A stretch of 64,000 bases of DNA, from assembly GCA_037783545.1 (NCBI GenBank), contig JBBELK010000620.1:124001-188000 (forward strand), read 5' to 3'. Numbering within the stretch: position 1 is the stretch's first letter; each line of letters begins with the position of its first letter. The position numbers and the translations under genes are program-made. This document shows, piece after piece, positions 1,018-63,107 of the stretch. The notes below the pieces were generated by a model that saw nothing but the letters and a program-made list of their open reading frames with translations, was not told where the DNA came from and searched no databases. This DNA comes from Henricia sp. BOLD:AAB3569 (Eukaryota > Echinodermata > Asteroidea > Spinulosida > Echinasteridae).

Positions 1018-1065
1018 ACTTTGAACATTGCTGACGTATACAAGGATTCAAAGTTTGACCCCAAG
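1018..1065 (+). CDS. PDE5: PDE5-like exon a (GAF-B)
   Basis: A 16-codon exon between a CAG acceptor and a GTAAGG donor, both in phase 0. It encodes [16 protein letters not shown], the strand/helix of GAF-B that reads LNIPDVSKDKRF in vertebrate PDE5. No earlier exon is recognisable in the first 1017 bases. Confidence 0.88.
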
Positions 1066-4000
1066 GTAAGGTTTGAGCGATTCTGCAATCATGTTCATGT
1101 TTGTTGATGGATTTGTGTTTCTTCTAGAAAATTGTGGTTCTCAGAAAGATTTACAGTGTGCATTCTGGTTTGTGGGGGAGGGTGGGGGGAGGGGGGGGGG
1201 AGGGAGGTAATCTGTAAACTCAGACAAATTCAATTGAATCAGAGAATTTGGGGGAAAATATCCCTATTCATGCAGAAGGTCTTGTCTCCTGAATCAGTTC
1301 TATAGAATTCAAACTGCCGAGTGAAAAAGTGCCAGACTACATAAGCATTCAAAATTTCATTGTTAAGATGAGAATTGGAACGCACAAATAGCCTGGCACC
1401 GTTCCAATTTTGCATTCTATAGAACTATTCAGGGAACACAATTGAACTATCCTGCGCGAACACTATGAGCAACTAACAATGGAAATTGGGCACACATCAT
1501 TGTTAATAACAACCCAATTTCCATTGTTAGTTGCTCATAGTGGAATAGGGTATATGGTACTTGAAAGAGATATTATAAATACATGTATTTTATATTTCTA
1601 AATTTGATGAAGCTAGTAAGAATTCTACATGTTACTCATCTTTCTGTAATTACCCTTTAATTGTCATCATTCTTTGAAGAAAAAATATCAAATTTAACCT
1701 TTCTTAAACATTGCCCGAAATGTTTTTTTAATCTGAGAATTATTACTTTGATTATTTTTTTAAATAAAAAAAAAAATTAAAGCAAATTTGATTGGCCAAA
1801 AGTTAAGACCAGGTCAAGCAACACAAATACTGACTCTTGAGAGTCATTTCTACATTCATTGTATGAATCTTCTCACCAAAAGATCATACTTTGCAACACT
1901 CCGATTCAACTGCCCCACTCCGAGTCAACATTGCAAGAACGTGTTAACACGTCCTCCGGCAAGTGGTTAAGCCATTAGCCACAATGGATGCAGACTAATA
2001 TTGAATAATGTGCTTCATAGGTTGATGAAGAGACAGGGTACAAGACCAGGCAGATGCTGAGCATGCCCATTAAGAACGCCTTTGGTTCCATACTGGGTAT
2101 CATCCTTCTGGTTAATAAGCAAGACGGGACGCCTTTCAATAGGAACGATGAAGACATGTTTGAGGTAGGTGCTTATAAGCCAAGGAAGTGTTTTGTTTTT
2201 GAAATATTTAATTTGAAATTAATTGCAAATTTCAAAACATTTAAATTGGTTCAGTTGTCTTAAAGTTTCTCAAGAATTAAAGTATACTGAAATGCAAAAG
2301 AAACTTACCACCTTTGAACCTTTAAATAGCAACAATAACACTGCGTGTAGTAATGTGTGAACTTATTTGTGGACAATAGTGTCCTCACTGTCAGACCAAA
2401 CGGTGTCTGAAGTTCACTTGATGGTCACTTCATGTCACAGCTGTTGAACAGCTGTTTTGACTGTCAGTGATTAGCCAAGGGGCATGGGATGATTGTAATG
2501 AGCTGCACGTGATGTCTTAATGTTGGCTTTAAAAAGGCCAGTGCAAAATGGGCATTTCAAGCAACATGCCACGATTGTCGGGGGATCAAAGACTGGTAGG
2601 CAGTATGCGCCGACGATGCACTGCCTGTATCCAAATCAAATGGGGGTACCGTGGCCGAGCGGTTTAAGTCATTGACTCGCAATCATAGGTGAAAACTTGG
2701 GGTTGCAGGTTCGAACCTCCCCACGGCTACGGTACCTGTGCCCTTGGGCAAGGCACTCAACCACACTTGCTCCATCCTTCGGAAGGGATGTAAAGCCGTT
2801 GGTCCAGTGTGTTAGGTAATCGAAACGCACTCTAAAGATCCCAGAGCATTCTTTCGTAAAGAGCAAGGGGGATCATCCCCGGTGTCTCTGGCCATGCATT
2901 TCTAATTCTAATTCTTCATGGGTCTCCTCACGCTTGCGAGTGACAGTGCAATGAGCACTATTGAGGAATCCTTGGTATGAATACCAGAATAATAAAAAAT
3001 AATAATAATAATAATGGTGGCTACACATGGTGTATCTTGGTAAAAAACTTGACATGTCATCAATAAAATGCCAATGTTTCAATTAGCAATTGTTGGTTTG
3101 TTTTATACAATTGAACTGATACAATTTCATTACATTTTAAACAAGTGGTAAGTTTCTTTTGCGTTTCAGTATATAAACAAAAGCATTTGAGAAGCTACCT
3201 AGATTTGCAAAGTACTGAACATGTCTGTTACTTAGCTTAGTTGTGCATCCATGCAACACCAAGAGAAAAATTGTTTTAAAGAACAATTGAGGGAGTATAC
3301 CACTTTATCTCATAGCTCCAAAACACTCAACCACGACACTCGACATGTTCCATGCTTGAGGATATGTAGATCTAACTTTCTGTATTTTGTTTTCTAAAAG
3401 TCGGTTTGAACCACCGATACGGACGTGTTGATAAAATTCAAATTGTTTCAACAGTCCTTAAAAGTTTCAGAATCATTCAATTTTGAAAATTGATGCCTGC
3501 GAAATGTTTCCACAAACAAGGTATTTCTGTGGAATCTAATTCAGAGTTTTCGAAGACTTAGACAAACACTTGCCATTTTTACCCAAACTGAAGCAACGCT
3601 CTGTATTCCCCTGAAGAAAAAAATAGTAAAACGGTTGATAAAACGCGATAAAATAGTAAAATAGTCCAACTATTTTATCAGGGACTTACACCCAGCCACT
3701 CCATGAGCCACTCATGAGGTGATCCAAAGTTCAAAAGAACTCTTGCTGGCTTCAAACTAGGTTGAAGAGTCGCTCAAGTAACTGGCGACTTCCTGATATT
3801 ATTATGATAATTAACCACTTCGGGCTGAAGCATTAACCCCCTTATAGACCCAATCACTCATAAATTGCCCATAAATTGGGTCAGCCGAAACCTAATGTTA
3901 CTACGTGTCAGTTTTTCGAGCCACAAGTGAAGCGTTCATACCCAGGTCACGTCCTACTCAACTCTGATTGTGGCCGAGTAGCTAGGCATGTTACGAGGGT

Positions 4001-7000
4001 CACAGAGCCAACAACCTTTAATCTGAGCTGAAGCCGCAAACATTTTTTTTTCAGATAATGAAGTTTGAATAAACATGAAGATTTTGATTGAGGTCGAGGC
4101 TATTGCTTGTGAATATAAAGTCGAATCTTGATATAAGTCTGTTTAAACCACGGAGGAAGGACAAGTACTAAAAAAAAATCATACTTTCAAGTTAGTGGCC
4201 TCATGTTTCATGTTTCTCAAAAGAAAAAAAAACAAAAAAAATGTATTTACTGAAAGTAAGAATTAAAGGAGTATGTTCAGATTTTTCCAGAAAATAATTT
4301 TTATTTTAACCTTAGAATCATATAAAATACATCCCCAAAATACTATCCATGGAAAGAAAACAGAAAATGCACAATCTGCAATTTGGATGTGGAAGCAGAA
4401 AGGTTGGTGTAATTACTGCACTGCTTTATGGAACAAGATAAATTAGTTTACAAAAAAATTGTAGTTTTTTTAACGATATCCTTGAAAACATACGGATTGA
4501 GAATGCGAAATTTCAGAATGGTAATGAGAAAAATATGCCAAACAATATGGTATAAAAATCTCAACACCCATGGGAAAAATCGGGGGATTAAAAAATGTGA
4601 TCTTGTCATGCTCCTTTAAAGGTGCATGTTCATATCGATAAAATCGACCCTCTCCCCACCGCATACCACTATGCTAAACTCAGAAATTCGGAATGAATTC
4701 AAAATTTAAGCTCATTGGATAACTTAATTTGTCTAGTCTTAACTTTTAGAAGTAATTTTGTAGCTGTTAACCTGTTGCTGTAAATTTTTTCAGTTATGCG
4801 AGCCGATAAACCAACATAAGATTGGCCTCATTATTCAGTACATGTATTGTTAAAATCCCGTGGCATGGCCAGTATTTTCTGTGGCAACTGATACGTGGCA
4901 AAAACAAATCAGAAAATTAAGACGGGTACCAGTGTAATTTTCTGAGTCGTAAAAATAGACATACCGTACGTGATCAGATATAAACACTTTGACGCAAATG
5001 CCCGAGGCTCTCGGAGTGGTACATGGATTGAAATGAGCATGATGTTTTGGACAGATTGCGAGAAATTTGGAAGGCTCGACGGACGCTAAATGAGGCATAA
5101 TGGAAGGTCAAGCATGTCTTTCCCAGGAGAGTTTTATAATGACCTTGCATGCTAACATCAAGGAATGACCAAACAAAATACGTAATAGCAGGACATGTGA
5201 AATAGGGTTTTTATTAAATATAATAATAGTAGAGGGTGTGTTTTACACATTTCGGTCAATTTCAGAAAATTTGATTGTTCCGTTTTGGTGTTATTGCAAG
5301 TTTTCTATTTTTATGCTAAGTGAATTTCCATATTCATGAGCAAATCTGTGATGTCATCTCAGGACAACAGAGGAAATCTCCATTGACTTGTGTACAAAAG
5401 TTTTTGTAATTTTCAGTGACTTCTTTGTGTTATGATCTGTAACAGTTTACTGAGTTTGTTTAGTATGTCATTTGTAACAATCCCAACAAGTTTGTTTGGG
5501 TCAGAAATGGATCAGTGGGCTACTGTTACTGTTTGAAATGTAATGTTCTTTCTTTGTTTTTCAACTGTGGGTTCCCTCCATGACTAGCAACAAACAACAC
5601 CCTCGTCTGAAGTAGAGAAAAGGTCACTTCTTTCTGAAATGAAAACAAATTTCAGTTTGCCCCTTTGTTTGCAACACTTTGATCTTCTGATTCGTGTATA
5701 AAAACAAATGGTTGATAATGTTCACTTCACTAAACCTTTAATAAAACCACAAACAGCCGAACTAGGCATTAATCCTGGAATTCTTCATAAATTGAGCTTC
5801 CTCAAAATGACCGTTTCGTAGAAGATATGTTTTGCTGTTAGTGGTTTTATTAATGAGATGCCAATTACGTATTTTGTTTGGTCATTTCCCGAGGACAACG
5901 CGTGCAGTCATTACAGATTTCTCCTGGGAAAGACATGTACAACTATTCATTATTTAGTGCTTGTTACAATACTATAGCAAGGTGATTATATGTACTTGTA
6001 TGGGGTTTGTCCGGATCTGTATTGGAAAAACAGACCCGCTTATGTTAAACACTGGACACCCTCATCAGTGCAATCACTGTGTACAGCTTGAAGTGCATTT
6101 ACGTTAATAACGTTCATTTAATATTAACTGACATCACCGGTGTTTGTTTATTAAAGGCATTCTCCATTTTTTGCGGCATGGGCATCAACAACACCCACAT
6201 GTACGAGAACGTCTGCAGGGCCGTGGCGAAGCAACGCGTTGCGTTAGAGGTAAGACCATAAAGTCAAATTGACGATGAGAGTTTGATGATGCGGGTTTCA
6301 CAGTTCATAACGCTCGGCAAATGTCAATTTACTTAACTTACTGTATGTATGGTACTTTGTTAAAGTTGGCTGTTGACCGCGGCCGGTGATGTGTAAAATG
6401 CAGTGGCGCAACTCGGAGGGGGTCAAGGCTTGGAAAATTTGTCACGCATCACTGCTTTCGTAATCTCTTTTCCGTTAGCATGTAATTTGCCAAATGTTGA
6501 ATGATCAATCTTGTTTTTCATTATGTTAATTAGATTTGTTTTGCCCTTTCCTAATGAAGCATTTTTAGCCCTGTTTTTAATTTTAAAAGGTTGTATTCCT
6601 CTCCCAATTTATTCTATATTGTTGTGTTAACTTTACCTAGAATAATCAGTAATTTGGTGCAAATACTTAAGAAATTTGTAATGAATATTTTTAAAGTTTT
6701 ACTTTGTTCCAAAGTGACTCGTGGGTAACTAAATTTTTTTAAATAAATTGAAGCTTTTACGGATACCGCATATTTCTGATACTGTGCAGTAGAGAGCCGC
6801 AATCGAATGTGAATCCAAACTGTGCATACGTATACGCACGCGTCATGCATTGTACGCGAAGATTGTTTTAAAACACTACATTGTACGGGTAAAACGTTTT
6901 TTTAAATGCATGCTTGTTGTAAACAACAAACTTGAGTTTTCAACACCAAATAAAGAGAAATCTTGTAGAAATCTTACAAAACAATGAAGGTATAAGCTTC

Positions 7001-10000
7001 ATTTATATAACAATAATAATATTGCATGTCTTTTTGGGTGATATAAGAATACACCGCATTCATCATGAAAATACCAAACTCGCTTTCAACTTGTTCAGTA
7101 TTTTCATAATTTGTGCAGTATATTCTTATATCACCCTCAAAGCCATCCAATATGATATACATGTAATTACACATATTATATTATTAATATACCACCTGCT
7201 ATATTAATTTGCCTGTCATAATATTGATTGATTATTCCTGCCAGACGCTATCTTATCACGCAACGGCCCCACGAGAAGATGCCCTCAGACTAAAAGTAAG
7301 AATTCCTTGTGTATCCAAAATTAATTTAGTTATTTCTGATAACCCGGGAAAGCGAACAAACTGTAAGTGCTTAAAACATTTTAAGTTTGCTGCAACAGTG
7401 AAAACACACAGAAACCAACTATAAAAGGGTTCTATGTTAAAGACAGTATACAACATGATTGGTAAACCGTTACAAATAGTTTTATCCCCCAGTGTGATTA
7501 AAACAAACCTGAGCAAAAATCAGCTCCGTACTTCGTCTAACTTTTGAGAAAACAGTCAAAAAAGAGTTTACAGTCATTTCGCCCTGAACCACTTCACCCT
7601 GAACCACTTCGCCCTAAACCACGGCCTGTGCACGTGGCTTTTGGGAGAAGTAGTGTTTGGACGAAGTTGTTTGGGGGCGAAATGGCACTTGGGCGAAGTG
7701 GTTCAGGACGAAGTGGTCCAGGGGGAAATGGTTTTGGGGCGATTTAAATTTACATCTCGCGAGACGAAAAATCATTGTTTTGCTCATTTCTCAGACTATA
7801 GCACTTCAGACAAAACCATTTCAGGGGAAGTAGTATTTCTGGGGGAAGGGAGGTGGTCTTGAAAAAATACTACGCTCTGTAGAACTGTGAAAATGTTGAC
7901 AACTTTGGACGACCCCTAAATAATTGTTTAATTACCATAATTTTTCCAGAAAATGGCGGTGCCAACCGTGTCAGAGATTGGGCTGGATGACTACTTCTTC
8001 AGCGACATGAAACTGAAAGAGGACGAAACGCTAACGGCGTCGCTGCGCATGTTCGTTGATTTGGATCTTATCAATAGATTCCGCATCAATTATGAGGTTG
8101 GTTTTAGAACAGAGATTCTGCAGATATGCATTTCGTATGCAGGCTTTTTTCGTAGGGACTATAGTTTGTAAATTTTTGTTCGTTTTCATGAAATGTGTAA
8201 AAAAAATTCTGCATAATGTCATGGCTAAACAGACGTCTCTGGGCAGACTTGGGGCGACCCGGGGAGGCTAAACAAATGCACCTTACAATTTAATAATCGG
8301 AAGCCATAATTATTTGTTCTGCTAAAAATATATGCTATATTTTTTTTCTGTCTCTGTTTTAACAGACTCTCTGCAGATGGTTGCTAAGCGTCAGGAACAA
8401 CTACCGCAAAGTGAGGTACCACAACTGGCGTCACGCGTTCACCGTTACCCAGACGATGTTTACGATAATTAGGGTGAGTCAGACTGGTGCCATCAGTGGA
8501 AACATGCTTTGCCTTGGCCGTCTGTCAAGGGTACCAGACCCTACCTTACAGTAATTTTTTTTTTAAATTTATTCATAAATACCTGAAAGAGTTTACCAAT
8601 TTCTATTGGTTGAGGAAATCACTCACACGAGTGGTCTTTAACAAACGGATGATTGGTCTTAAACACTTTTCGGAAAGTATTTATTTGAATGAAAGATAAT
8701 TGTTTTCCCTAAATGCAACGAGTTTTGAAGCTTAATAATTTTTTTTTTAAATAAACTGTAAATAAAACTTTAAATTATTAAACAAATAAGAGTAATCATT
8801 TTGACCAAGCCTAAAACAACATGTAGTCTGGTTACGGGTAGTTTGCATCATATTGCTATGTAAAGTGTGAGGCAGAAACTAGTTCACAGAGGCTCGCAAA
8901 CACAAACATAAACATGCTATGTTTGTTTTTTACCGTTGCAGAAAGGAGGCATGCGAAATATTCTGACAGAACTGGAAGTTCTAGCGCTCATGGTCGGTTG
9001 CTTGTCACATGACCTAGATCACCGGGGAACGACCAATAACTATCAAATCATGTGAGTAGATCAGATTTTGTCTATTCCACAAACTTTTTGATCTTCTGTC
9101 CATGTTATATTAGTTCTTTTATTGATTAGGTGATTATTTTTAGGGATTATGACCCGGGGTAATTGAATTCGATACAAATGTGGACAAACGTCCATATGAG
9201 TATGGGAAATCTGGATGCAGTGAAAAGCAACTTGGCTCCACCGGGATTCGAACCGCAGACCTTCTGCTTAACGTGCAGACGCCCTACCAATTGAGCTATG
9301 AAGCCAACTGGTGGTCTTGAATCACGGTAGTGCAGTTGTTCCTCACTGATTGGGATTGGCCATCATGGTGGAGCCAAGTTGCTTTTCACTGCATCCAGAT
9401 TTCCCATACTCATATGGACGTTTGTCCACATTTGTATCTAGTTCTTTTATTGAGGCATTTTACTGATAATTTTACAGGTCTGAGTCGCCCCTAGCCCAGC
9501 TGTACACCACATCGACCATGGAGCACCACCATTTTGACCAGTGCATTATGATTCTTAGCAGCAAGGTAGGATTTTTCTTAAATTAAACCGACCCTGAAAC
9601 ACGCTAGTACAAAACAATTGTTATATCCCTGATGTAAGTTTCAACATTTTTCAAATGCAGTATCTGGTATGGTGCCCAATCATCGTTGAATTGAAACAAC
9701 CAAACTTGGGAAGAGAGAAAAATTGTAAGGGCCTAATCGGGTTCGAACCCGATACCTGTCTCACCGGGCAGATGCTCTACCAGCTGAGCTATAAGGGACA
9801 GTGGTATACTCTCTCAAGTTTTCACAAGACCTCTGACTCACGAGGCAGAAGCTCTACCAGCTGAGCTATGAGGCACAGTGGTATACTCCCTCAAGTTTTC
9901 CCCAAGACCTCCGACTCACGAGGCAGATACTCTACCAGCTGAGCTATAATGCACAGTGGTATAGTTCCTCAGGTTTTCCCTACGAACCCAATTTTACTTC

Positions 10001-13000
10001 CTTTCAAAGGTTATGTAATTTTAGACCGAGCGTTCTTCAATTTTTATTCTTTAGGGCAATGAGATCTTCATGAACCTGAATGCGGAAGAGTACAGCCAGA
10101 CCATGCGGCTTCTAGAACACGCTATCCTAGCTACTGACTTGGCCCTCTACTTCAAGTAAGTGCTGATTTAGTCTTTGTATCATTTTTAAGCACGCTAACT
10201 CAGTCTTGACCAAAGTGCCACAATTTCTTAAGGGTATCAAAAAGTGGGTCTTCCTCGGATCTAGAGCTCAATTTTGCGATTGAGATATTTTTCGACAAAT
10301 GCTTGTATCTTATCTCAAAATATATGAATTAACTTGAACTCGTTCTAAGAAGATAACTTAAAGTTGCACTGTCCGATTTTAGGCCAATTTTTAACTTACA
10401 AATATGCCCCAAAAGTGTCTCTCCTTGTTACGTAAGTTAACAAGGAGGATTTGTACAGGGAGATTTGAGAAAGGTACATAAGTATGTTGTCATCTTTGCT
10501 TGATCTGTGTGTTTTGTATTGTTAAATGGAACAGCTAGCATCCAAGACGCGTGCAATGCGCCCGTTCAATAAACGCGCAAATAACCGACAGTGGCCCTAC
10601 ATAAAACATCGAAAAGATTTGACACATGCGCAAACCATGACACGGCCGTTTTAATGTTAAAGTCCTGGGGTGTTATGGCCGAGCGGTCTAGTGCGTCGAA
10701 CTTAAGTTCCTGTGCTAGTACTAGAATGTAGGTTCGATTCCGGGCCGCGACGGGTTGTGGCACCTGTGCCCTTGAGCAAGGCACTCGACCACACTTGCTC
10801 TCATTCCTGTAATTGGCGGTCTCTCCGCTGTTGGATGTGGTAAATAAATAAATAAATAAATAAATAAAACATATATGCACCACTATTTTTTTGTGCCGAA
10901 AAATCTCTTCAATTCTGCTAATGCTGTCTTTGGGCCTGCAGTAGTCGGAACCCAAAAAATTGCAAAGTTTGTTTGAAATATTTTTAGGTACCGAGGTGAG
11001 TTTTTCAGCCTCGTCGAAGAAGGTCACGATGATTGGGATAACGAGGACCATAAAGACCTGCTACGCGGTATGATGATGACGGCATCAGATGTATCCGCTA
11101 TTACCAAACCTTGGGAAGTACAGAAAGAGGTAATAGGCATGCTGCATGGGTGGCCATCTTAGTGTCTTTGTCTTCGTTTGGCAGGAGTCAGAGTTGTAGT
11201 CCTCACAAGCCTTCACAAGTCCACCACAAGTCTTAATTTAAGTCACAAGCTATTAAAATGAATTCCAACAAAGGCATTCTTTTGTGCGTGTTCATCCTTT
11301 GCTTCTTGTTACTGGACTTGTGCGGGACTTGTCACGGACTTGTGATTTTATCGGCTCTAGACTTGTGATAGACTTGAATACAATCCTGGCAGGAGTGCAC
11401 TTTGTGCGTCCATAAATTACTAAAATGAAAATATCACCCTTTGTACGCTGCCAAAGTTACTGGGTCTACACTAAAACCAGTGAACTGTTTCCCTGTGCTT
11501 TAGCAATGGATGTTTCTGAGTACCAGCAAATGTTGAGATCCAGTTTTAAACAAATGTTTCCTCTCCCTTTAGGTTCTGTTTGACAAGCTTGTCATGATTT
11601 ATTTTGAACGTTTTTTTTTCAAGGTGGCACAGCTAATTTTTGGCGAGTTCTTCGAACAAGGCGATCTAGAACGACAGCAGTTTAACAAAACACCAGAGGT
11701 CAGTAAACTAACACAGTGAGTCACGGATAGACCATTAAATCTGCAATAGACCGTATCGAATAGCTGCCATCTTGTAGGGCAGTTGCTTTGTTCCTTGAGG
11801 ACATGCATGGTTGCACGTTTGGAGCTTACACTGTCGACCAATTTGCAGTGACCCCAATTTTTTTTCACGAGTTGACAAAAAAAGCTTACTAAAAGTGTTA
11901 ATAACAATGGAACCAAACACCACAATTTTATACCGGTCCAAAATGGTATTTTGTGTGAAAAAATTAACAACTGAAGGTGGTTTTCTAAAAAAGTCTTTTG
12001 CAAAAGACTTTTACAATTCAACTCAACATAAAAACCATGAATGGATTTTTCAAGTTTTCAGAAGTATTACTGCACCTATGTGGCTGAAATTTCTACAGGG
12101 CAGTTTTATCAACATGGGCTTCTAATCACGAGTGGCAATAACGCCCCTTTTAACAGTTTACCAATCATGTGTTCTACCTTTAAATATCAAAAGTTGGCCT
12201 ACAAGATGGCAGCTATTGGATACGGTCTATATTAAACTCATAAATTTGTTATAAGAAAAGTCCAAAATGATGTATTAGACAGTATTTTTTTGTGTTTTTT
12301 TTTAAGGACATGATGAACCGAGAAAAGCTACATCTCCTGCCCAAAATGCAAGTTGGCTTCGTGGATTCTATATGCATGCCCGTGTATGAGGTATGTATTG
12401 ACCACTTCGTAGGATAAATGCTACTGCGTATTAAACGCCATCAAGTACGCGCACGCACACCCTAGGAAAATGTTCCAAATGCGCGCGCGTGTTGCTAAAC
12501 ATTTGTTCGAAATATGGCGCAGCCTATGCACGTCATAAAAATTTACAATCGAGATCCTGATGCACATGACAATTTGTAGGAAGTGACGTCATTTGAGAGT
12601 GATCAATTGAGAATATACAGTTGATTCCATGTTTGTTGACATTTCTGTGTGGTTCACAGAAAAAGTTGTCAACATTTTCACGGTTCTACAAAGTGTAGGA
12701 ATGGTGATGGGGGGTGCGTGTCGCAGACCCAAACGACTTTACATGCACTGTAAAATGTTGACATTTCATGGTAGTGACAACAAATGTTGATCAGTAGTAT
12801 TTCAGGGGAGGGCGAGAGTCTTGAAAAATGCTACTCTCTGTAGAACTGTGAAAATGTTGACAACTTTAGACAGCTCCGAAACAAGGACCCTATTCAATTG
12901 CTTTGTTCGATGAAGACTTGACAATGACACCAGGGAATTCCTTTTCTCTTGTGAACAAATGTGTGAGGTCATATGGGTACATTAGACAACACACTGGACC

Positions 13001-13714
13001 TACGGCTTTACATCCCATCCGAAGCTCTTTGCTCAAGAGAGTAAGAATCACAAGCGATCTCCGACCCACAATCTCAGGGTAGTTTTTGACCAGACGATGC
13101 GCCTTTGTAATATTTTGACGGCACATTAAAGGAGCGTGTCCAGATCACAGTTTTGAGCCTCCCATTTTTGTCATGGATGTTGAGATTTGGATACGATATC
13201 ATTTGTCATGTTTTTCTTATTACCATTCTGAAATTTCATGTCCTAAATCCGTATATTTTCAAGGATATTGTAAAAAAAAACACCAATGTTTTGTAAACTA
13301 ATTTATCCGTTCCATAAAGCAGTGCAGTGATTACACCAACATTTTTGCTTCCACATCCAAATTGGAGATTGCAAATTTCCTGTTTTCTTTCCATGGATAG
13401 TATTGTAGGGAGGTATTTTATATGATAATTAAGTTAGAACGAAATCCATTTTCCTCGGAAAATCTGGACAAGCTTTTCTAATCTTTGCAATGAACGCTTC
13501 CTAAATGCCTCATTATTATCAGGCGTTAGCTAAAACTTCAGAGAAACTCGCGCCACTACTCAACGGCTGCAAGGAGAATCGCGACCACTGGCAGACAATC
13601 GCAGAGGAGTGCAAACAGCCAATGGCGGAGAAGAAAGAACAAGCGTCGTCCGACGAGAAAGACATCGACGAATCGGAAGCCACGACCTCGACCCAACCAA
13701 GCAATAAAGATTGA
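1018..13714 (+). CDS. PDE5: cGMP-specific 3',5'-cyclic phosphodiesterase, PDE5-like (3' part of gene, 13 exons)
   Basis: Thirteen exons with matching splice phases join to a 460-residue open frame ending in TGA. It begins inside the GAF-B domain ([13 protein letters not shown], then a GAF NKx(n)D-type motif NKQDG...NRND), so GAF-A and the start lie before the window. The linker exons read [19 protein letters not shown] and TLSYHATA as in PDE5. The catalytic domain has YHNWRHA (proton-donor and first metal histidines), HDLDHRGT (metal-binding HD pair), [20 protein letters not shown] (third metal aspartate) and MQVGF (the nucleotide-selecting glutamine and clamp phenylalanine). By family knowledge the product hydrolyses cGMP to GMP in the cytosol and is allosterically controlled by cGMP at the GAF domains. 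Several segments are closer to PDE5 than to PDE11 (PFNRNDE, MQVGF, the C-terminal LLNGCKENR). The tail after the domain is short and acidic, with no CaaX box as in PDE6. Invertebrates often carry one PDE5/6-type gene, so this may be the pre-duplication form. Confidence 0.93.
1173..1207 (+). other. G-run tract (possible G-quadruplex)
   Basis: Uninterrupted purine tract with runs of 5, 3, 6 and 11 G separated by A or T, in a PDE5 intron about 108 bases after an exon. A similar C-rich tract lies at 43171-43194. Confidence 0.6.
1283..1440. repeat. TIR element with CTGAATCAGTTCTATAGAAT ends, copy 1
   Basis: Inverted ends CTGAATCAGTTCTATAGAA / TTCTATAGAACTATTCAGG around a 110-base centre containing AGCCTGGCACC. 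A second copy is at 51987-52090. Confidence 0.7.
1461..1542. repeat. Perfect hairpin, 30-bp arms
   Basis: CACTATGAGCAACTAACAAT...TTGGG (1461-1490) is exactly complementary to 1513-1542, with a 22-base loop. Confidence 0.9.
2021..2164 (+). CDS. PDE5: PDE5-like exon b (GAF-B core)
   Basis: A 48-codon exon with acceptor ATAG and donor GTAGGT, phase 0/0. It starts [13 protein letters not shown] and carries the GAF NKx(n)D-type motif ([12 protein letters not shown]) that closes the cyclic-nucleotide pocket. Confidence 0.92.
2281..3174. mobile_element. Terminal-inverted-repeat element with a nested SINE
   Basis: Ends AGTATACTGAAATGCAAAAG and its inverted near-copy at 3141-3174 (about 34 bases). 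No transposase frame. A tRNA-derived SINE fills the second half. Confidence 0.65.
2645..3016 (+). repeat. tRNA-derived SINE, family A
   Basis: Head with Pol III A box (GTGGCCGAGCGG) and B box (GGTTCGAACCTCC), body with TGCCCTTGGGCAAGGCACTC and GTAAAGCCGTTGGTCCAGTG, tail of AAT repeats. A second copy is at 18738-19070 and a reversed body fragment at about 12950-13125. Confidence 0.85.
4267..4615. mobile_element. TTAA-flanked MITE, family G, copy 1
   Basis: Ends AGGAGTATG... and ...CATGCTCCT lie between TTAA at 4263-4266 and 4616-4619. The centre has CTTCCACATCCAAATT (as complement) and CTTTATGGAACAAGATAAAT, shared with the copies at 13140, 38800 and 40431. Confidence 0.8.
5113..5939. mobile_element. 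Non-autonomous element with about 78-bp inverted ends
   Basis: Left end CATGTCTTTCCCAGGAGA...GACCAAACAAAATACGTAAT (5113-5190) matches the complement of 5862-5939 with scattered changes. The 670-base centre has no coding signal. Confidence 0.75.
6157..6249 (+). CDS. PDE5: PDE5-like exon c (end of GAF-B)
   Basis: A 31-codon exon encoding [19 protein letters not shown] followed by AKQRVALE, the GAF-B exit helix. A 4-kb intron full of repeats precedes it. Donor is GTAAGA. Confidence 0.92.
6940..7170. repeat. Imperfect hairpin in a PDE5-like intron
   Basis: GGGTGATATAAGAATACACCG and its inverse CAGTATATTCTTATATCACCC flank a centre with inverted GAAAATACCAAACTCG-type arms. Confidence 0.6.
7245..7295 (+). 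CDS. PDE5: PDE5-like exon d (linker)
   Basis: A 17-codon exon encoding [17 protein letters not shown], matching the LSYHA linker between GAF-B and the catalytic domain. Acceptor CCAG, donor GTAAGA. Confidence 0.88.
7453..7830. repeat. CGCCC-array element, copy 1
   Basis: Unique flanks (ATGATTGGTAAACCGTTACA; CTCCGTACTTCGTCTAACTT) enclose an array of 13-15-base units of the CATTTCGCCCTGAAC type. Three read one way and about seven the other way, meeting at GGCCTGTGCACGTGG. The inverted sister copy is at 55634-56004. Confidence 0.8.
7950..8096 (+). CDS. PDE5: PDE5-like exon e (start of catalytic domain)
   Basis: A 49-codon exon after TTTTTCCAG. It encodes the first catalytic-domain helices ([16 protein letters not shown], then [13 protein letters not shown]). 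Donor is GTTGGT. Confidence 0.92.
8366..8473 (+). CDS. PDE5: PDE5-like exon f (HNWRHA)
   Basis: A 36-codon exon encoding [15 protein letters not shown] and YHNWRHAF. It holds the catalytic proton-donor histidine and the first metal-ligand histidine. Donor is GTGAGT. Confidence 0.94.
8942..9051 (+). CDS. PDE5: PDE5-like exon g (HDLDHRG metal site)
   Basis: Encodes [19 protein letters not shown] and [11 protein letters not shown], the core HD metal-binding signature of class I phosphodiesterases. It ends in phase 2 before GTGAGT; the missing base comes from the next exon (ATG codon across the junction). Confidence 0.94.
9171..9438. mobile_element. Hairpin element with 72-bp perfect inverted ends and a tRNA-like unit
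   Basis: GATACAAATGTGGACAAACG...GGCTCCACC (9171-9242) is exactly complementary to 9367-9438. The centre holds a tRNA-like sequence whose acceptor end lies inside the left arm. A 15-base direct repeat TAGTTCTTTTATTGA (9111-9125 and 9439-9453) brackets the unit. Confidence 0.9.
9234..9305 (-). tRNA. tRNA-like sequence inside the hairpin element (probably not a functional gene)
   Basis: Read on the minus strand it is 72 bases with paired acceptor ends (GGCTTCA / TGGAGCC), A box TAGCTCAATTGGTAG, an anticodon arm with loop ACGTTAA (GTT, Asn-type, but C instead of T before the anticodon) and B box GGTTCGAATCC. The position in a mobile element and the changed U33 argue for a tRNA-derived repeat. 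Confidence 0.5.
9478..9565 (+). CDS. PDE5: PDE5-like exon h
   Basis: Encodes [20 protein letters not shown], then QCIMILSSK. The EHHHFDQC helix is a hallmark of PDE5/6/11. Acceptor TTTACAG, donor GTAGGA. Confidence 0.94.
9655..9985 (-). repeat. SINE family C with a run of three tRNA-like half units
   Basis: Minus strand: tail TTTCAATT...GATTGGGCACCATACC, a B box GGGTTCGAACCCGAT, and three successive A-box units (ATAGCTCAGCTGGTAGAGC) spaced about 80 bases, each followed by AAAACTTGAGG-GTATACCACTG. Relatives at 36583-36700 and short tails at 33450-33478 and 58966-59005. Confidence 0.75.
10055..10155 (+). CDS. PDE5: PDE5-like exon i
   Basis: Encodes [20 protein letters not shown] and [10 protein letters not shown], as in PDE5. 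Phase 2 donor GTAAGT. Confidence 0.94.
10668..10868 (+). repeat. tRNA-derived SINE, family D
   Basis: Head ATGGCCGAGCGGTCTAGTGC and GGTTCGATTCCGGG, short body (TAATTGGCGGTCTCTCCGCT) and an (AAAT)n tail; about 200 bases. Nearly identical copy at 32518-32697. Confidence 0.85.
10988..11129 (+). CDS. PDE5: PDE5-like exon j (third metal aspartate)
   Basis: Encodes [12 protein letters not shown], then [19 protein letters not shown]. The aspartate in TASD is the second essential acidic metal ligand of the domain. Phase 1 completion of the preceding codon fits. Confidence 0.94.
11189..11386. repeat. ACTTGTGA-array MITE, copy 2, with 10-bp target duplication
   Basis: Same arrays and centre as the copy at 690-911. 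It is flanked by the identical 10 bases TGGCAGGAGT (11179-11188 and 11387-11396). Confidence 0.8.
11624..11698 (+). CDS. PDE5: PDE5-like exon k
   Basis: A 25-codon exon encoding [20 protein letters not shown], the helix that reads VAELVATEFFDQGDRER in PDE5. Acceptor follows a T-tract; donor GTCAGT. Confidence 0.93.
11746..12230. mobile_element. ATAGACCGTATCGAATAGC MITE, long copy
   Basis: Ends ATAGACCGTATCGAATAGCT and ...AGCTATTGGATACGGTCTAT. Length 485; the centre contains open but non-coding stretches. A short copy lies at 42924-43073. Confidence 0.8.
12307..12390 (+). CDS. PDE5: PDE5-like exon l (MQVGF cGMP clamp)
   Basis: A 28-codon exon encoding [18 protein letters not shown] and [10 protein letters not shown]. 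The Gln and Phe of MQVGF hold the guanine ring in PDE5. Donor GTATGT. Confidence 0.94.
12950..13125 (-). repeat. SINE family A fragment, reversed
   Basis: Contains ACACTGGACCTACGGCTTTA and CATCCCATCCGAAGC, the complement of the family A body, without the tRNA head. Confidence 0.6.
13140..13480. mobile_element. TTAA-flanked MITE, family G, copy 2
   Basis: Left end TTAA + AGGAGCGTGTCCAGATC; internal CCGTATATTTTCAAGGATAT and GCTTCCACATCCAAATTGG. The right end is eroded. It ends about 40 bases before the last PDE5-like exon. Confidence 0.78.
13523..13714 (+). CDS. PDE5: PDE5-like last exon and stop
   Basis: Encodes [20 protein letters not shown] and a hydrophilic tail ending PSNKD, then TGA. 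The tail is rich in Glu, Asp, Ser and Thr and has no prenylation box. Confidence 0.92.
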   Translation, partial: ALAKTSEKLAPLLNGCKENRDHWQTIAEECKQPMAEKKEQASSDEKDIDESEATTSTQPSNKD

Positions 13715-14764: not shown

Positions 14765-14808
14765 TACAGTGTAAGTACAAAAAAACACTATACACTTTTA
14801 AAATTACA

Positions 14809-40430: not shown

Positions 40431-40710
40431 AGGAGCGTGACCAGATCACATTTTCAATTGCCATATTTCGCGTTCTCAATCCGTATATTTTCAAGGATGT
40501 CGTCGAAAAACCGCCAATGTTTTGTAAAGTAATTTATCTGGTTCCATAGAACAGTGCAGTAATTATATTAATCTTTTTGCTTCCACATCCAAATTAGGGA
40601 CAATGTAATTTTCTTGTTTTCTTCCCATATAGATAGTATTTGGGCGAAGTATTTTACATGATTGTTAGGTTACAACGAAATCCAATTTTGGAAAAATCTA
40701 GAACGCTCCT
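40431..40710. mobile_element. TTAA-flanked MITE, family G, copy 4
   Basis: AGGAGCGTGACCAGATCACA to GAACGCTCCT, right flank TTAA, left flank CTAA. Same centre as copy 2. Confidence 0.78.
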
Positions 40711-43681: not shown

Positions 43682-44262
43682 TCATAACGCAGCGATGACT
43701 TCCGTTACTGGCTGCTCGCCAACTCGCGACGATGACCGAGCTTCTGAGTATCCCTCCGATCTCTGTGCGCCGTCATCTTCACCTTTGACCTCATTGTCTC
43801 TCCACGGCATCTCAGATGCAGACTGGTCTTGGCTCTCGTAATCCGAGCCCTCAGCCTCCTTCTCGGCCCCAACCGTCTTGTCCGTTTCTTGGTCGTCCCA
43901 TGACCCATGTTTGCTCGGGTCGTCTGCGAGCTGAACCTCCAGCTGCAAGACGTGTCCTTCTTCCTCATGGTTCACGGTTAGAATTACGCCGTCTTCAGGG
44001 TTGACCTCCTTAACAGGTGTCCTCCTGCTTTCTTTCATGACCTGGCAGGTGTGGTAGCGTATATCGGACGAAGGATGCCTCTTGCAGGCCAGCGACGGGC
44101 CGCATTGACACCGCTGGAAGAAGTCCGTGTGGCGATCTCGTTTCTTGGTGCACAGGTCTCCTTCAACCAAGATGGGTTTGCAGACGCGAGTCCAGAAATG
44201 CTGGGCGCAGCACAAACCATGGCCACACTGGTCGGACGTCTCGCAAACCTCGTCCTCTCGAA
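43682..44262 (-). CDS. DKK: Dickkopf exon 3 (second Cys-rich domain and acidic tail)
   Basis: Acceptor TTTTACAG, phase completed by one base of exon 2. The first 70 residues carry ten cysteines with CCAQHFWTRVCKP. The remainder (HEEEGHVLQLEVQLADDP..., GEDDGAQRSEG, ending VTEVIAAL) is acidic, without cysteine or membrane segment, and ends in TGA. Confidence 0.92.
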
Positions 44263-50200: not shown

Positions 50201-53200
50201 GCCAATATTCTCTCCAGGCTCGATTATTTACCACAACCCCGGCGCACTTTGTACTTGTAACAGGTGGGAAACTGTCCTTGTATCTGGGGAAACCATTCTC
50301 GATCGGAGTCTCCAAGGATTCAAGTACACGTGGTTAGTGCACCTGGGTCGGCAGCCTTTGCCAATAACCAAAATAATATACCATCAAATCCCACAAGTGT
50401 TCTGGATGCAAATTCACCCAAACACGGCGAGAATCCGCTCAAGGTATAGGGGCATTAAAGTACAAAATATTATAAAAATGAAAAAAAGCACTCAGTGGAG
50501 ATGAACGTTTAAAGAAGGCGAGAAAGGAATTAAACAGACACACACAACGTCGAATTGTGGAAATTTCAAAGGTCTTTGTGTCATTTTGCAAAGACCTGAA
50601 GCTTTTTTTCGTGATTTGACATAAACATTCCTACAATAAATATAATTTTTTTTCTGTCCACAAATTGTCCTTTTCTGCAGGAAATTAACTGTATAAGTGG
50701 TTTTAAAAATAAACGCATAGCCTATACTCACTCGCATTTTAGCACCACCAGAATAATGTTTGTGATGCAAGCAATGATTCGGCCAATGCATGGCAAGCAT
50801 GTCAATGCTGACGTCACAAACATGTTTCTACACATGGTCGCGAAAACTTTACCCGATTTGGCATCCAATCGACGCAACACGAACAATGCTGCATTGTATT
50901 GAATTGAATTCCATTGGCTCAGCAGTTTACAGAACATATGCCGTACGGGTGACGAGTTGGCACCGAATGTCTGTCGTGTTGATTTAGCACACTGACTACA
51001 ATTTATGACGTGTCCTTACCGTTTTATGGCTGGCTTTGCATAGTTTGTGCTTCGCGTTTACTTTGGGATTTTGATGATATAGGTCATTCTATATACATTT
51101 TTGGTCCAAATTTTGGGTTGCCCCTGTTACATCTAATGCAAGATTTTGTAAGTTTTTATTTAGAAATTTGCTAAAGATTTAGTACAGGATTTTCTACATG
51201 AATCTGCATTGTTATGCAAGATTTTGTTCATGATCATGACCATCAACAATCTTGACCATTTCATAGAGAACTTCTGTTTAAATTTAAGCACAACTATTTC
51301 ATGTTGAAACTCTTCGTACACCTTTTAAGTCGCACAGTTCTAACCGCCAACACTTTCAGTCACATTTTGTGCGTGAAATCCCTCTTGTTACCGAATTCCA
51401 ATTAAAAACAAAAACTAAACATTGACTTTTGAATATGTATACGGTTTTATACCGTTGTGGTTTGCCAAGAAAAAAAAGAGAAAAAAAAGTTTGAAGGAGA
51501 GAGGAAACTGTGCCTTGCTGTGAATTGTGGACCTCTCACTGCCATACGGTAATAGCGAGCAGGTGCAGCAAGCTACCCCGTAGAGCACGGCACTAGGACC
51601 CATAACACAACCCCTGGGTCAGTGCGCAGAGACTCAGACCTCAATATTTATTCAGCTATGTTGTTTCTTTTCCTCCACCTTGCATGTATATTTGTTAATT
51701 TTCGATTCTAATCGGTGCCCTAGACGAATTATCTTTGAGAAATGATTAGAATTGTCAGGCTTTGAAAACATACTGTGCAAGCTTCATTCACAGATCACCC
51801 AACTTCGAAGCTAATAATACCCTTAAAGTGAAGTTGCAATCGGTTGTCTTGAAAAATTGGCAATGTTGTTCGATGTCAAACGTATATAAGGACAGATAAT
51901 GAACTTCGTTCCATGAAAGCAAAACGAAAATGTCTTAAAGCCAAACCCATAGACGCTATATATTAACGCGTTTGAATGGTTTATTAACCCTGAATCAGAT
52001 CTAAAGACGAGGCTTGACACGCATAAGTAGTCTGGCACCTTTTCAATTAGCAGTTTGTATTCTATAGAACTGATTCAGGGGACACGATTGAACCTTAAAC
52101 GCGTGGATATAATACATTTTCAATTTCCAGTGACCATGAAGAGGAACTAAAAAGTACAAATTTACTATAACTTAAGCTAAAACCAAGTTTGCCTGTTGAT
52201 AACTTAAATGTTTCGATTTTTTATTTATTTATTTTCTTTTATTTATTTATTTACCAACCAAATCGAACAGCGATCGAGTCGCCAATTACAGGACGGCATA
52301 AATCAATGCTAAAGGTATTCTTATGTACAAGGCTGCATGCATGGTTTCCCCTTTCGTGGAATATTTAACGCTTTTGTTATGTTATATTGAGATACGATTT
52401 CAAAGAGGCATTATTTTAAGAAATCCATGCATTTGCGGCAGCCATAACCACAACGTTGTAATGTTCAAAGGTTTGCATCCATGGATGCGGGGGCGTTTCC
52501 TGGAAAAGCAAGGAAAATGCCAGTCCTTGTTGTCTGGTGCTCCGATCCGGCTTCATATGAAACCACTTAGTACCCAGAAAACTGAAAGGTATGGAATGAT
52601 ATGTGCAGTTTTCGTAACCAAGGTAGTACTTGATAAAAAAACAATGGATTCCTGGAGAATTTATATACCTCACTTGTACATTATTATCAATTTCAGCCGG
52701 TTGCCATTTTGTATCAATTTTAATGTTTAAGTGTCCAAAAACAGTGTTCTTGAAGAATATTGTAACACATCTGAATAGAAAGGGTAGTGCACGGCTGGTT
52801 GCTAAAGAGTATTTTTAAAGGGTAAGCCTATATCAAAATGTGCCCCATAACTTGCTCGTTTTGCTGTAACAGTTATTTGACAAAAATCTTACAAACAGTG
52901 CATGTCTACCACTGTGTACGATGTACACGCTGATATCTATCTTACTGTATTACCATATACTGTTTGTATTTAAGCTCATGATTATACGAAAAGGATGCCG
53001 ACAGAGGTGTCAAGACGTCTAGCGGCTTAATGAATAAACATTTATCAATGTTTGTCTATTGTTTTTATTATAAACAAGTCGTGTTATAAGACAGCTGTTG
53101 GTGAACCAGCAAGTTAGACTTATCTTGCTGAATTAACGAAACCTCGACAGTGAATCAAACTCAAACTGTTTGCGTAATAAGTAAAATTTTGTCGGGAAGG

Positions 53201-54244
53201 CCTAGTCGTTTGGAATAGGTATCGAATTGCGGATCTTTTACGATTGAAAAAGGTCCCTGTGGAAATGTGGATATGCTGTAGTTTAAGTAATATGCCATGA
53301 ATTTATGTGGTAACTGTTATAAAGAAATTTACAACTTTCAACAAGCATTCACAGCCCACGTTCGTTTACAAGTTCAATCATTGATTTCTGAAATACGAAT
53401 TCGTTCTTGGTTAAAAATTAAAATGTTCTTAGATCTGAGAATCAGATGCCATGACAGCATCTCCTGTATAATAAATCCACATTTATTTCATACATAATTT
53501 AATAAATAGCGGCTATGGTGACAAAAACACAGCGAGGAATTATTGTTACAACCAGCGTATATAAACATTGCAAATAGAACCAAATCATTGAATATCTGGA
53601 CGTAAAACGATTTACAATCATTAATATCCAGATTTTAATATCCAGATAATCCCAGGTGCAGTACAGATACAACTTTAATGGGAACCAAACAGAATCTCGA
53701 CACGAGAGGTTAAATTACTAATTAGACATATGGCGTACTCATGTTCCTGAATTGTTTTGCACAGGCCAAAGTACAAGGCTCCGGGGACGTTTATTTGAAC
53801 TGAACGGTTCACCTCCGAGACGCACTATTGGGCCCAAGTCAAGACCGACCCATGCCTTACGGGACTTCAGTTGTCGACTCGTGTTTATTTATCAGGTTTG
53901 GGACACACAGGAAGGGAAATACACTGCAAGGGATTTCGACAGATCTGACAGGTTGGTGTAGTTGTAGAATTTGGCGTTAATTTACTTACCAATATTCGTT
54001 GAAATGGATCCCTTCTGGAGGTTCCGGGAGCTCCGGAATCAGCGGAACTGTCCCCATCTTGCGGCCGGCCTTCGCCCCTTGAGCCCCGCCTGTCGCCCCC
54101 TTGTTCACCCGCTTCACGTAGGAGCTCGCGTCTCCGTTCGCGGACGTACACACCGTGGGTTGGCAAGCATACCAACAGCATGAGAAAAGACGCCACCAAA
54201 ATACCCATCTTGCAGAACAAAGTCAATGACAGTTGCGTGAACAT
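43682..54244 (-). CDS. DKK: Dickkopf Wnt antagonist, DKK1/2/4 class (three coding exons)
   Basis: Three in-phase exons give a secreted protein of about 364 residues (386 with the alternative exon-2 acceptor). Exon 1 encodes a signal peptide (GILVASFLMLLVCLPTHG) and a basic Gly/Arg-rich spacer. Exon 2 encodes the first ten-cysteine domain (LCNHDDECDRKYFCHGG... CLPCRRSRRRC, GMCCHGNVC). Exon 3 encodes the second (VCETSDQCGHGLCCAQHFW, VCKPILVEGDLC, FFQRCQCGPSLACKR, TCQ). GLCCA-HFW-CKP-EG-C is the colipase-fold signature by which DKK1/2/4 bind LRP5/6 and block Wnt/beta-catenin signalling. The inter-domain linker is about 40 residues, unlike DKK3. An acidic C-terminal tail of about 115 residues follows the second domain; vertebrate DKK1/2/4 stop there. 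Confidence 0.92.
44697..44955 (-). CDS. DKK: Dickkopf exon 2 (first Cys-rich domain)
   Basis: Ten cysteines in DKK spacing. The start is uncertain: acceptor CACAG before GTGTTATG (44955) or the better pyrimidine-backed TTTTTAG at 45023-45022 (exon from 45021). Both are phase 0. The end is a phase-1 GTAAGC donor that fits exon 3. Confidence 0.85.
45885..46113. mobile_element. MITE with GTTTAGATGCA ends
   Basis: TAGGCACGTTTAGATGCACG and the inverse end CGATGCATCTAAACTTCCCT; subterminal CGCAAACGCGAACGCGAAA. In the first Dickkopf intron. Confidence 0.65.
46865..47172 (+). repeat. Two identical 40-bp direct repeats 268 bases apart
   Basis: TATCCGCCATTACTGTGTCC...CCAAAGC occurs at 46865-46904 and 47133-47172 without a mismatch. 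The space between contains ATTCAACACTGAT and inverted ATCAGTGTTGAAT. Confidence 0.85.
47185..47256 (-). repeat. SINE family B fragment, reversed
   Basis: CTCAGGTGGGATTCGAACCCACGACCTCC with the hairpin CACTATGAG...CTTCATAG; truncated before the A box. Confidence 0.7.
47257..53989. other. First Dickkopf intron, repeat-poor part
   Basis: From about 48.2 to 50.5 kb few repeats and a higher GC content than the surroundings, with no sustained reading frame; a reasonable place for cis-regulatory sequence. Contains a CACGTGGGAA motif (48209-48218: E-box overlapping a Su(H)-type CGTGGGAA) and an ATCAAAG TCF-type core at 48726-48732. Confidence 0.35.
51987..52090. repeat. TIR element with CTGAATCAG ends, copy 2
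   Basis: Shares the ends and TAGTCTGGCACCTTTTCAAT with the element at 1283-1440. Confidence 0.7.
53990..54244 (-). CDS. DKK: Dickkopf exon 1 (signal peptide)
   Basis: ATG at 54244-54242 is in frame with a second ATG at 54208-54206. The second has the stronger context (AAG before ATG, G after) and starts directly at the hydrophobic signal sequence GILVASFLMLLVCL. The rest is Arg/Gly/Glu-rich. Donor GTAAGT after ...RILV-frame, phase 0. Confidence 0.85.
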
Positions 54245-60986: not shown

Positions 60987-61208
60987 ATGAGCTATCCAGG
61001 TTATCCACCCGCAGGGCCGGGGTACCCACCCCAGGGTGCGGGGTACCCACCACAGGGTGCAGGGTACCCACCCCCAGGGGCGGGAGGCTACCCACCTACG
61101 GGTGCCGGCTACCCACCGCCAGCTGAGGGATCATACCCACCCCAACCTGGGTCGTACCCGCCTCCAGGGGGAGCACCAGGGGGATATCCTAGTACATACC
61201 CACCACAG
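60987..61208 (+). CDS. ANXA7: Annexin-like exon 1
   Basis: ATG in the context AAACATGAG, then 74 codons of GYPPxGA-type repeats to a CAG/GTAGGA donor, phase 0. The DNA is a degenerate 21-base tandem repeat that includes GGGTACCCACC units. Confidence 0.75.
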
Positions 61209-63107
61209 GTAGGATCATCAAATCATACCGATTGTTGTCTTAAAATGTTTATTTGTGAATTGGAACTTGAATCAACTTGAATCACAAATTTTACTAACTT
61301 AGGCCCAAAAAGGGTTACAAATAGTGTGACAACATGCCTTTCTAAAAACCCTGTGTACAAATTTCCAATATACGCTTGTAACCGGGACGGACATTTGTGT
61401 TACATTTTAGGCCGTCCCGGTTACGAGCGTATATATATTGGACATTTGTACACGGGGTTTTTAGAAAGGCATGTTTTTACACTATTTGTAACCCTTTTTG
61501 GGCCTAAGTTATCTCTTTAGAACAACTGTAACTTATTTCTTTTATTTTGAGACCAATTTTGGAAAATATGGTCTGTGTTGCCAAAATGCCCCCATTTACC
61601 GTGGAAAAACTCATTTCAAGAACAAGCCTAAACTTAGTTTAAACACGCAAGTTCCAGCATTTTCAAACTAATTTTGAAATAAGCTTGAACAAAATTACTC
61701 CCATATTGGTACATTTACTCTATTTAATTTTCAGGGTGGTTATCCTGCTCCTGGAGGAGCCCAGCCTTACCCAAGTAAGTACTTAAAGAACAAATGTTCA
61801 AATTTTGTTGACATAAGTGTTAATATTAAATATTGCTCCCTGATAGACTTGGCTGAATTGTGATGGATTACAGACTACAGACTGACAAATTTAAAATAAT
61901 GGTCAAATTTAGTGAAAATGCAATTTTTTTTGTATAACTGCATAATTATTTATACAGTGCATTTTCATTGTATTGTAGCCAACTGCTTTTTATGCAGACA
62001 GATTTGTACATATTTTTACACTATGTAGAAAAAGTTGCATTGGTTTTAAATATAATTCATAAATACCTTTTTTTATGCATCCCTATTGGTTGAGAGCACG
62101 TCACGTGGCCAGTTTTAAACGGATGATAAAGCCAGTTCTAAACACTTTCTTGCCTGGCCCGCATTTGTGCCCGCGCCCTAGTCAGCGTGTATGGAACACG
62201 CACATGCACACAGAAACTGCACACGCCCGAAAGCAAAATGTGCAAAGTACCCCATAGTGCGCAGGCGTATACAACACGCCTGCATTACACGTAAAGCGCT
62301 CGATCGAACAAAAACAACTCGATGCACAGCTTGCAGTTTGAACGAACTTGCGATGCATATAAAAATAAAATGCAGAATATGGCAAAACGGCAAGCGAATT
62401 TGATGAGTTTTACTGATTTACACAAAAAGGTATTTATGAATGGGTTGCGGCTCGGGCCATTATCACTCGTTGGGTTTTAAACGTATAAGACTGGCCAAAC
62501 CCACTTTTATTCCCTAAATGTACCTGAAAAAGCCAAGTTTTAAAAAGTGTATTTTTGTATTGTTTGCTGCTTTGTGTTATCACATATCTTGTATGAGAGA
62601 CAAGGGAGCTTTTCCAAATCTCGGCTTCGTCTCCGTCTCCGGCTCTGTCTCCATGTGGTTTACATGGAGTCGGAGCCTGAGCCTGAGCCCAAGTCGAGAT
62701 TTGGCCCAGGTTATCATGGTAACTGATGAATTGAAATCCGTGTATGATCCAATCTGTAGCTGGCATCCAGGCCCCACCACCTGGTGCCCCCTACGGCCAG
62801 CCACCCCCTGGGGCACCCTACGGTCAACCCCCATCTAGCACACCCTACGGTCAACCCGCATATGGTCAACCCCCATACGGTCAACCCCCAGCAGGCGCAC
62901 CGTATGGTCAGCCCCCAGCAGGCGCACCGTATGGTCAGCCCCCAGCAGTCGCACCGTATGGTCAGCCCCCAGCGGGCGCACCGTACGGTCAACCGCCGGC
63001 TGGAGGGGCACCGTACGGTCAACCGCCACCGGCTGGGGCACCTTACGGCGGGCAACCCCCTGCAGGTTATCCGCAGCAATCGCAGCCGCAACAGCAACAA
63101 TATGGAG
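60987..63107 (+). CDS. ANXA7: Annexin A7/A11-like protein, N-terminal repeat region (5' part of gene)
   Basis: Three in-phase exons encode a protein that begins [20 protein letters not shown], closely like the start of annexins A7 and A11 (MSYPGYPP). It continues with GYPPQGA repeats, a short [13 protein letters not shown] exon and about ten APYGQPPAG repeats, then QPQQQQYGG. Such Gly/Tyr/Pro/Gln tails bind ALG-2-type partners and phase-separate in ANXA7/11, and precede four Ca2+/phospholipid-binding annexin repeats. Those repeats are not in the window. Exon 3 ends at a phase-1 GTAAAA donor at 63108; if it is not spliced the frame stops at 63119-63121 (GKNK). Alternatives: another XYPPX protein such as peflin, or a short stand-alone repeat protein. 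Confidence 0.65.
61298..61509. repeat. Repeat F, palindromic copy
   Basis: CTTAGGCCCAAAAAGGGTTA...TTTCTAAAAACCC mirrors its complement around GGACATTTGTGTTACATTTT, an almost complete 212-base palindrome in the first annexin-like intron. Confidence 0.8.
61735..61774 (+). CDS. ANXA7: Annexin-like exon 2 (40 bp)
   Basis: Short exon [13 protein letters not shown] after TTTTCAG, phase-1 donor GTAAGT. The composition matches both neighbours. Confidence 0.72.
62057..62443. mobile_element. TIR element with ATTCATAAATACC ends
   Basis: ATTCATAAATACCTTTTTTT and AAAAAGGTATTTATGAAT enclose 350 bases in the second annexin-like intron. A related stretch with ATTCATAAATACCTGAAAG lies at about 8565-8700. 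Confidence 0.7.
62613..62705. repeat. Hairpin before annexin-like exon 3
   Basis: CCAAATCTCGGCTTCGTCTC...CTCCATGTGG pairs with ACATGGAGTCGGAGCC...GTCGAGATTTGG. Built of GTCTCC/GAGCCT hexamer-like units; it ends 55 bases before the exon. Confidence 0.8.
62760..63107 (+). CDS. ANXA7: Annexin-like exon 3 (APYGQPPAG repeats)
   Basis: After CTGTAG, 116 codons of APYGQPP repeats; the DNA unit is about 27 bases (for example around 62885-63060). A frame also stays open on the opposite strand because of the GC-rich repeat, but it has no other support. Confidence 0.75.

Follow-up and report, generated by a model that had tools for sequence, protein, structure and literature searches.

Four genes located within 62 kb of a sea star contig raise the question of whether they were joined by accident or represent a surviving piece of the linkage group that was copied by the early vertebrate genome duplications. 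They lie in a window of 64,000 nucleotides from Henricia sp. (assembly GCA_037783545.1, contig JBBELK010000620.1), which corresponds to C620:124001-188000; C620 is a contig of 2.83 Mb within an assembly of 740.7 Mb and 2104 contigs. Coordinates given without a contig name are window positions. From left to right, the window contains four intron-rich genes of animal type:

1015..13714, plus strand: 3' part of a probable PDE5-type phosphodiesterase (last portion of GAF-B, followed by the catalytic domain and the stop codon); tblastn guides, splice-site model, Pfam PDEase_I, PDB
30789..38629, minus strand (38629 down to 30789): USP53/54, 11 exons modelled, catalytic domain and one long exon; tblastn guides, splice-site model, PDB
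43682..54208, minus strand (54208 to 43682): Dickkopf-1/2/4, 3 exons, 352 amino acids; Pfam, splice-site model, PDB
60987..63107, plus strand: first three exons of an annexin A7/11 gene, coding for its Gly/Pro/Tyr-rich N-terminus; exons 60987-61208, 61735-61774 and ~62760-63107

Gene identities were taken from Pfam and from a sequence search of solved structures (PDB), and exons were located by tblastn with guide sequences. Exon limits were set by splice consensus with the reading frame kept (splice-site model); exon 3 of the annexin gene was set by hand. Human sequences served as references in the PDE5A/PDE11A, annexin, and TNIP1 comparisons. The original prediction had proposed a linkage of PDE5-like, USP54-like, DKK1/2/4-like and annexin A7/11-like genes, and both its names and its strands were borne out by Pfam, PDB matches and exon models. 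Identities and linkage on C620 are direct observations; the human and mouse locations given with a citation are those stated in the cited papers.

The window probably represents a closely packed remnant of the ancestral linkage group behind the paralogon of human chromosomes 4, 5, 8 and 10. A table of the human region 4q13.3-q28.3 (75.1-131.4 Mb) lists ANXA3, ANXA5, DKK2, PDE5A and USP53, and the same list contains ATOH1, BMP3 and TNIP3 (PMC2837036); the predicted presence of USP53, PDE5A, DKK2 and ANXA5 together on 4q was therefore correct. Likewise, USP54 and ANXA7, which had been placed on chromosome 10, are listed there with PPP3CB in one region of ~0.56 Mb (PMC3397127).

All four families of the window have a member in 4q13.3-q28.3, for which the chance is ~1e-5; this value assumes the family sizes and a total of 20,000 genes, of which 239 are listed for the region. 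These four families suggested the idea, hence they are a less fair test than the flanks. For the latter, genes were picked by coding potential and not by name: open frames over C620:64001-328000 were scored after training on exons of the PDE, USP and DKK genes, which gave 109 stretches that passed, 77 of which lie in the flanks. Among the five flanking families, three have a 4q member (BMP3/GDF10, atonal, and TNIP) and two do not (RSAD1 and hnRNP H/F). The corresponding chance is 2.9e-4, and it rises to 0.018 if the families are widened to superfamilies. Taken together, seven of the nine families named across ~248 kb are represented in a single human region of 56 Mb, where ~0.4 of nine would be expected (0.38 for the first eight); in a simple model with assumed family sizes and 20,000 genes, which leaves out a second TGF-beta-type ligand and unnamed coding-like stretches, the chance is ~7e-9. 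Both this value and that of the flanks alone, even on the generous count, argue against a lineage-specific accident, in which chance or a recent rearrangement would have joined the four genes and their co-location in human would be coincidental. We regard such an accident as improbable, although the genes seem to match the human order and orientation only in part at the local scale, and other 4q/10q families that were sought by guides were not found in 264-284 kb. As expected for a segment of the paralogon, linked families with members on at least two of human chromosomes 4, 5, 8 and 10 were found: besides the 4q members, published maps place members of the USP and annexin families on chromosome 10 and members of the TNIP and annexin families on chromosome 5; further second members are named below.

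According to the paralogon reading, the genes would have stayed on one chromosome in this genome while their local order was shuffled. Two early vertebrate genome duplications would have copied the whole segment, and each copy would have kept a different subset: USP53, PDE5A, DKK2, ANXA5, TNIP3, ATOH1 and BMP3 on 4q; TNIP1 and ANXA6 on 5q; USP54 and ANXA7 on 10, along with ANXA11, DKK1, ATOH7 and GDF10 on 10q. The linkage would predate the vertebrate duplications. Common descent on a single chromosome seems sufficient to account for it, and we claim no function or mechanism for the block other than linkage.

The paralogon itself has been described for the neuropeptide Y receptor regions of human chromosomes 4, 5, 8 and 10; it includes annexins and has been attributed to two early vertebrate tetraploidizations (PMC2453138). 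Annexins and the same human chromosomes are thus common to it and to the window. That study, however, compares vertebrates, whereas the window is seemingly a pre-duplication segment with four families in 62 kb, and the terms DKK, Dickkopf, USP and PDE5 are absent from its main text. In view of this published quartet, one part of the original prediction stands and another has to be modified: an ancestral block is supported by the seven of nine families on 4q, but the proposed descent into two ohnolog regions falls short of the four (PMC2453138). A second paralogon, that of PDE6, resembles the window in comprising human chromosomes 5, 4 and 10 and relatives of the PDE genes, and its regions have been tied to the neuropeptide Y receptor paralogon (PMC4906994). 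It concerns PDE6A/B/C, which the source treats as a family of its own, present in tunicates and not found in amphioxus, whereas the gene of the window is PDE5-like. The earlier placement of PDE6C on chromosome 10 is right, but as a member of this separate family the gene need not be an ohnolog of PDE5A (PMC4906994). Work on linkage groups in chordates (PMC7269912) and on the chromosomes of hemichordates (PMC11175523) has found chromosome membership to be kept and gene order to be rearranged, as expected here; both studies are at the scale of chromosomes, and the terms annexin and dkk are absent from the main text of the latter.

In the openly licensed literature, we found no paper that joins PDE5A, USP53 and synteny or that describes this linkage. 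The principle of a copied ancestral segment is already known; the close packing of four families is a useful new example. It provides a single-contig anchor, with seven families inside ~222 kb, for the ancestor of the known vertebrate paralogon and would add DKK, TNIP, USP53/54 and BMP3/GDF10 to the annexins in the 4/5/8/10 set. Moreover, it offers a simple test of whether the adjacency of PDE5 and USP53 is ancestral.

The flanking families named above were identified as follows. Pfam gave matches over cut-off for four of 10 flank stretches (Radical_SAM, HLH, and TGF_beta twice), two sub-threshold matches to CC2-LZ, and nothing over cut-off for the remaining four. Downstream of the window lies a radical-SAM gene, whose likeness to RSAD1 we base on a motif. 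A bHLH (basic helix-loop-helix) gene is also present downstream (HLH, 66.3 bits), which we take to be atonal-like, again from a motif; its best solved relative is NeuroD1, and there is no atonal chain among the 22 PDB matches. Two runs of coiled-coil exons are TNIP-like, with TNIP1 as the best, weak match in PDB (E-value 0.0015) and a match to a TNIP1 guide (E-value 1.5e-4). For a downstream TGF-beta-family ligand, BMP3 is the best solved relative (128.9 bits vs 118.4 for BMP2). In an extra 20 kb of flank, TGF_beta matched a second ligand of this type with 104.9 bits, and a gene was found that is presumably hnRNP H/F-like, judging from a motif; RRM_1 reached 26.1 bits in one of its two stretches.

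Several observations weigh against the window as a piece of the paralogon's ancestor. Local order seems to differ, with human ANXA7 on the 3' side of USP54 and the annexin gene of the window on the 5' side of USP, and the annexins of 4q are ANXA3 and ANXA5 rather than A7 or A11. RSAD1 is a misfit. The hnRNP H/F family is absent from the human 4q list and fits only via its members on chromosomes 10 and 5. With 26 bits against a cut-off of 35.3, the CC2-LZ matches leave the TNIP call below the Pfam threshold. No fitting Pfam family was obtained for another three TNIP-like stretches or for one of the two hnRNP-like ones. At the subfamily level, atonal, TNIP and hnRNP H/F were assigned from motifs or from low scores. 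In addition, coding-like stretches without a name (e.g. at C620:198923, 211838, 236418 and 279028) were left out of the counts.

Guide searches for other human 4q/10q families point in the same direction. In 264 kb, 18 tblastn guides gave no credible match (SEC24, CAMK2, PPP3C, NDST, FABP2, MAD2L1, PAPSS, TCF/LEF, UBE2D, VCL, ADK, VDAC, P4HA, JNK, PITX, NEUROG, CISD and CCNA2), the best being a TCF match with an E-value of 0.006 and internal stops. PRKG1, RASGEF1, MAPK8 and PTPN13 PDZ guides gave none at E<=0.1 over 284 kb. This outcome of 22 queries, two of which represent the same kinase, is weak evidence, because 284 kb covers little of a chromosome and few matches are to be expected.

Finally, the segment had been called unduplicated, a description that is not supported and that bears on its role as a single-copy source: the assembly contains at least two more PDE5/11-type loci (C772 and C162), annexin repeats on seven contigs and Dickkopf_N on four, C620 counted in both cases, which leaves three more Dickkopf_N loci beyond the window. 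PDE matches, distant families included, occur on ten contigs, again with C620. Some of the annexin contigs look like haplotype pairs. More generally, the contig sets C993/C406, C3/C141, C3/C754, C355/C406 and C368/C705/C746 show the same family matches with equal or near-equal scores, as if both haplotypes had been kept in parts of the assembly. For C620, no haplotype-like partner was seen in the annexin, Dickkopf_N and PDE searches.

A further objection concerns the phosphodiesterase, which could be PDE11 or a lineage-specific PDE5/11 paralog; in this case the PDE leg of the synteny would be wrong and the rest would stand. The gene starts ~30 kb upstream of the window, near C620:94355, and its 13 exons inside the window, all on the plus strand, are:

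1015-1068 (approximate, weak 23-bit match), 2021-2164, 6157-6249, 7245-7295, 7950-8096, 8366-8473, 8942-9051: first seven exons within the window
9478-9565, 10055-10155, 10988-11129, 11624-11698, 12307-12390, 13523-13714 (stop at 13714): last six exons

Two GAF domains precede the class I catalytic domain, as judged from matches to PDE5A: GAF-A and the N-terminus were located at C620:94355-114594, and GAF-B extends into the window up to 6249. Pfam assigned 106.7 bits to PDEase_I in one frame; its scan of 1-14999, which covered two of the three frames, gave no GAF. The best solved relative is PDE5 (447.6 bits; PDE6 reached 281 bits). The catalytic part does not separate the candidates (384 bits to PDE5A vs 383 to PDE11A), and another PDE5/11-like gene exists on C772, with 401 bits to PDE11A and 383 to PDE5A; both observations are compatible with PDE11. 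In contrast, the N-terminus prefers PDE5A (138 bits vs 98 for PDE11A), and C162 is the better PDE11 (228 vs 190 summed bits). Moreover, a tree of five sequences and 144 sites, a small sample, places the window gene with PDE5A, apart from (C772,(C162, PDE11A)), with supports of 0.85 and 0.84. By these comparisons PDE5 is modestly favoured and the gene is probably of this type; the PDE11 alternative appears unlikely. One N-terminal exon reads TPVRKVSASEFE at C620:94562-94597 (L012:562-597), a stretch which we take to be close to the phosphorylation-site region of human PDE5A. No gene other than the PDE was given a name in the analysed upstream flank. Long open frames at C620:73707-75171 (L009:9707 to L010:1171), upstream of the PDE, resemble mobile-element proteins by eye.

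The PDE gene, with its stop at 13714, and the USP gene, modelled from 38629 down to 30789, are arranged tail to tail, as had been stated, and USP53 and PDE5A probably have the same orientation in human. This pair, and possibly annexin near TNIP, might have been kept together since before the duplications by regulatory elements of one gene that lie in or beside the other. In agreement with such a constraint, candidates on mouse chromosome 3 are given in the order Pde5a, Fabp2, Usp53, Myoz2, in an incomplete list that names 30 of the 55 genes of the region (PMC4204525). Similarly, TNIP1 and ANXA6 are neighbours within a 25-kb block on human 5q33.1 (PMC4289690), and in the sea star contig TNIP-like genes are again found near an annexin. 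Here, however, they lie 81-101 kb beyond it, and the annexin is of the A7/11 type, not A6. The comparison comprises two pairs from one invertebrate, and ~12-17 kb separate the coding ends of PDE and USP. Constrained microsynteny is therefore conceivable but doubtful. Carried further, it leads to a speculation to which we give little credence: before the duplications, the ancestor of chordates or of deuterostomes would have carried a compact micro-block PDE5-USP53/54-DKK1/2/4-ANXA7/11 close to TNIP and BMP3/GDF10, and the PDE5/USP53 and annexin/TNIP pairs would have remained neighbours for >500 Myr under regulatory constraint. Wnt-antagonist and BMP genes would thus have shared one regulatory neighbourhood until the vertebrate duplications.

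The remaining genes of the window, on which the paralogon reading likewise depends, can be described briefly. For the USP gene, a single solved structure was matched at E<=0.001, that of USP54 (8c61) with 504.7 bits, and the long exon ends in a stretch that resembles the MIT-like part of USP54. Pfam gave no match on single frames over 29400-39000, where the exons are too short. Toward ~25.9 kb, open stretches were noticed by eye, which are possibly more 3' exons of this gene:

25859..29819, minus strand: candidate further 3' coding exons of USP53/54

The Dickkopf gene combines a signal peptide, recognized by eye, with Dickkopf_N and a DKK1/2/4 C-terminal Cys domain. Its exons, on the minus strand, are:

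54208-53990: signal-peptide-like start (by eye)
44955-44697: Cys-rich domain 1
44262-43682: Cys-rich domain 2 and a tail of 117 residues

Dickkopf_N (45.5 bits) and DKK1/2/4 C-subdomain-1 (44 bits) are over the Pfam cut-off, and C-subdomain-2 is below it (24 bits, cut-off 27). On the same stretch, the prokineticin model passes as well (24.4 bits vs a cut-off of 21.6). In PDB, the second Cys domain matched DKK1 with 69 bits and DKK2 with 64 bits, and the first one DKK4 with 30.5 bits. The 117-residue tail after the second Cys-rich domain (43682-44035) is acidic; we know of no counterpart in human DKK1/2/4.

Inside the window, the annexin gene is represented by its YPPQG/PYGQPP-type N-terminus only, on which the earlier annexin A7/11 call rested, and Pfam found no annexin repeat over 60.9-64 kb. 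The call was confirmed by the sequence beyond: a whole-genome search located same-strand PF00191 repeats at C620:190481-195844, and the first repeat lies at 189478. Overall, the repeats span C620:189478-195850 (window-equivalent 65478-71850), 1.5-8 kb past the end of the window. Because they follow on the same contig and strand, the identity is settled, and peflin or another PYGQPP-rich protein is excluded as the source of the N-terminus. The gene thus joins a Gly/Pro/Tyr-rich N-terminus to four annexin repeats, and its hand-joined core scored higher with ANXA7 (385 bits) than with ANXA11 (346) and ANXA5 (318), the three human sequences compared.

In the downstream flank, the two TNIP-like UBAN coiled-coil runs (L023:9210 to L024:3285 and L025:2381-8966, minus strand) adjoin, and not every exon matched TNIP; they are possibly tandem duplicates. 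The two TGF-beta-family ligand genes are on opposite strands, ~13 kb apart: the BMP3-like one at L027:6357-8016 (minus) and the other at L033:694-2421 (plus). Within the window, a repeat whose translation contains VLNPYIFKD is present twice (13111-13293 and 40358-40546), and copies of a second repeat family were recognized by eye near 24.1, 25.5 and 61.3 kb.

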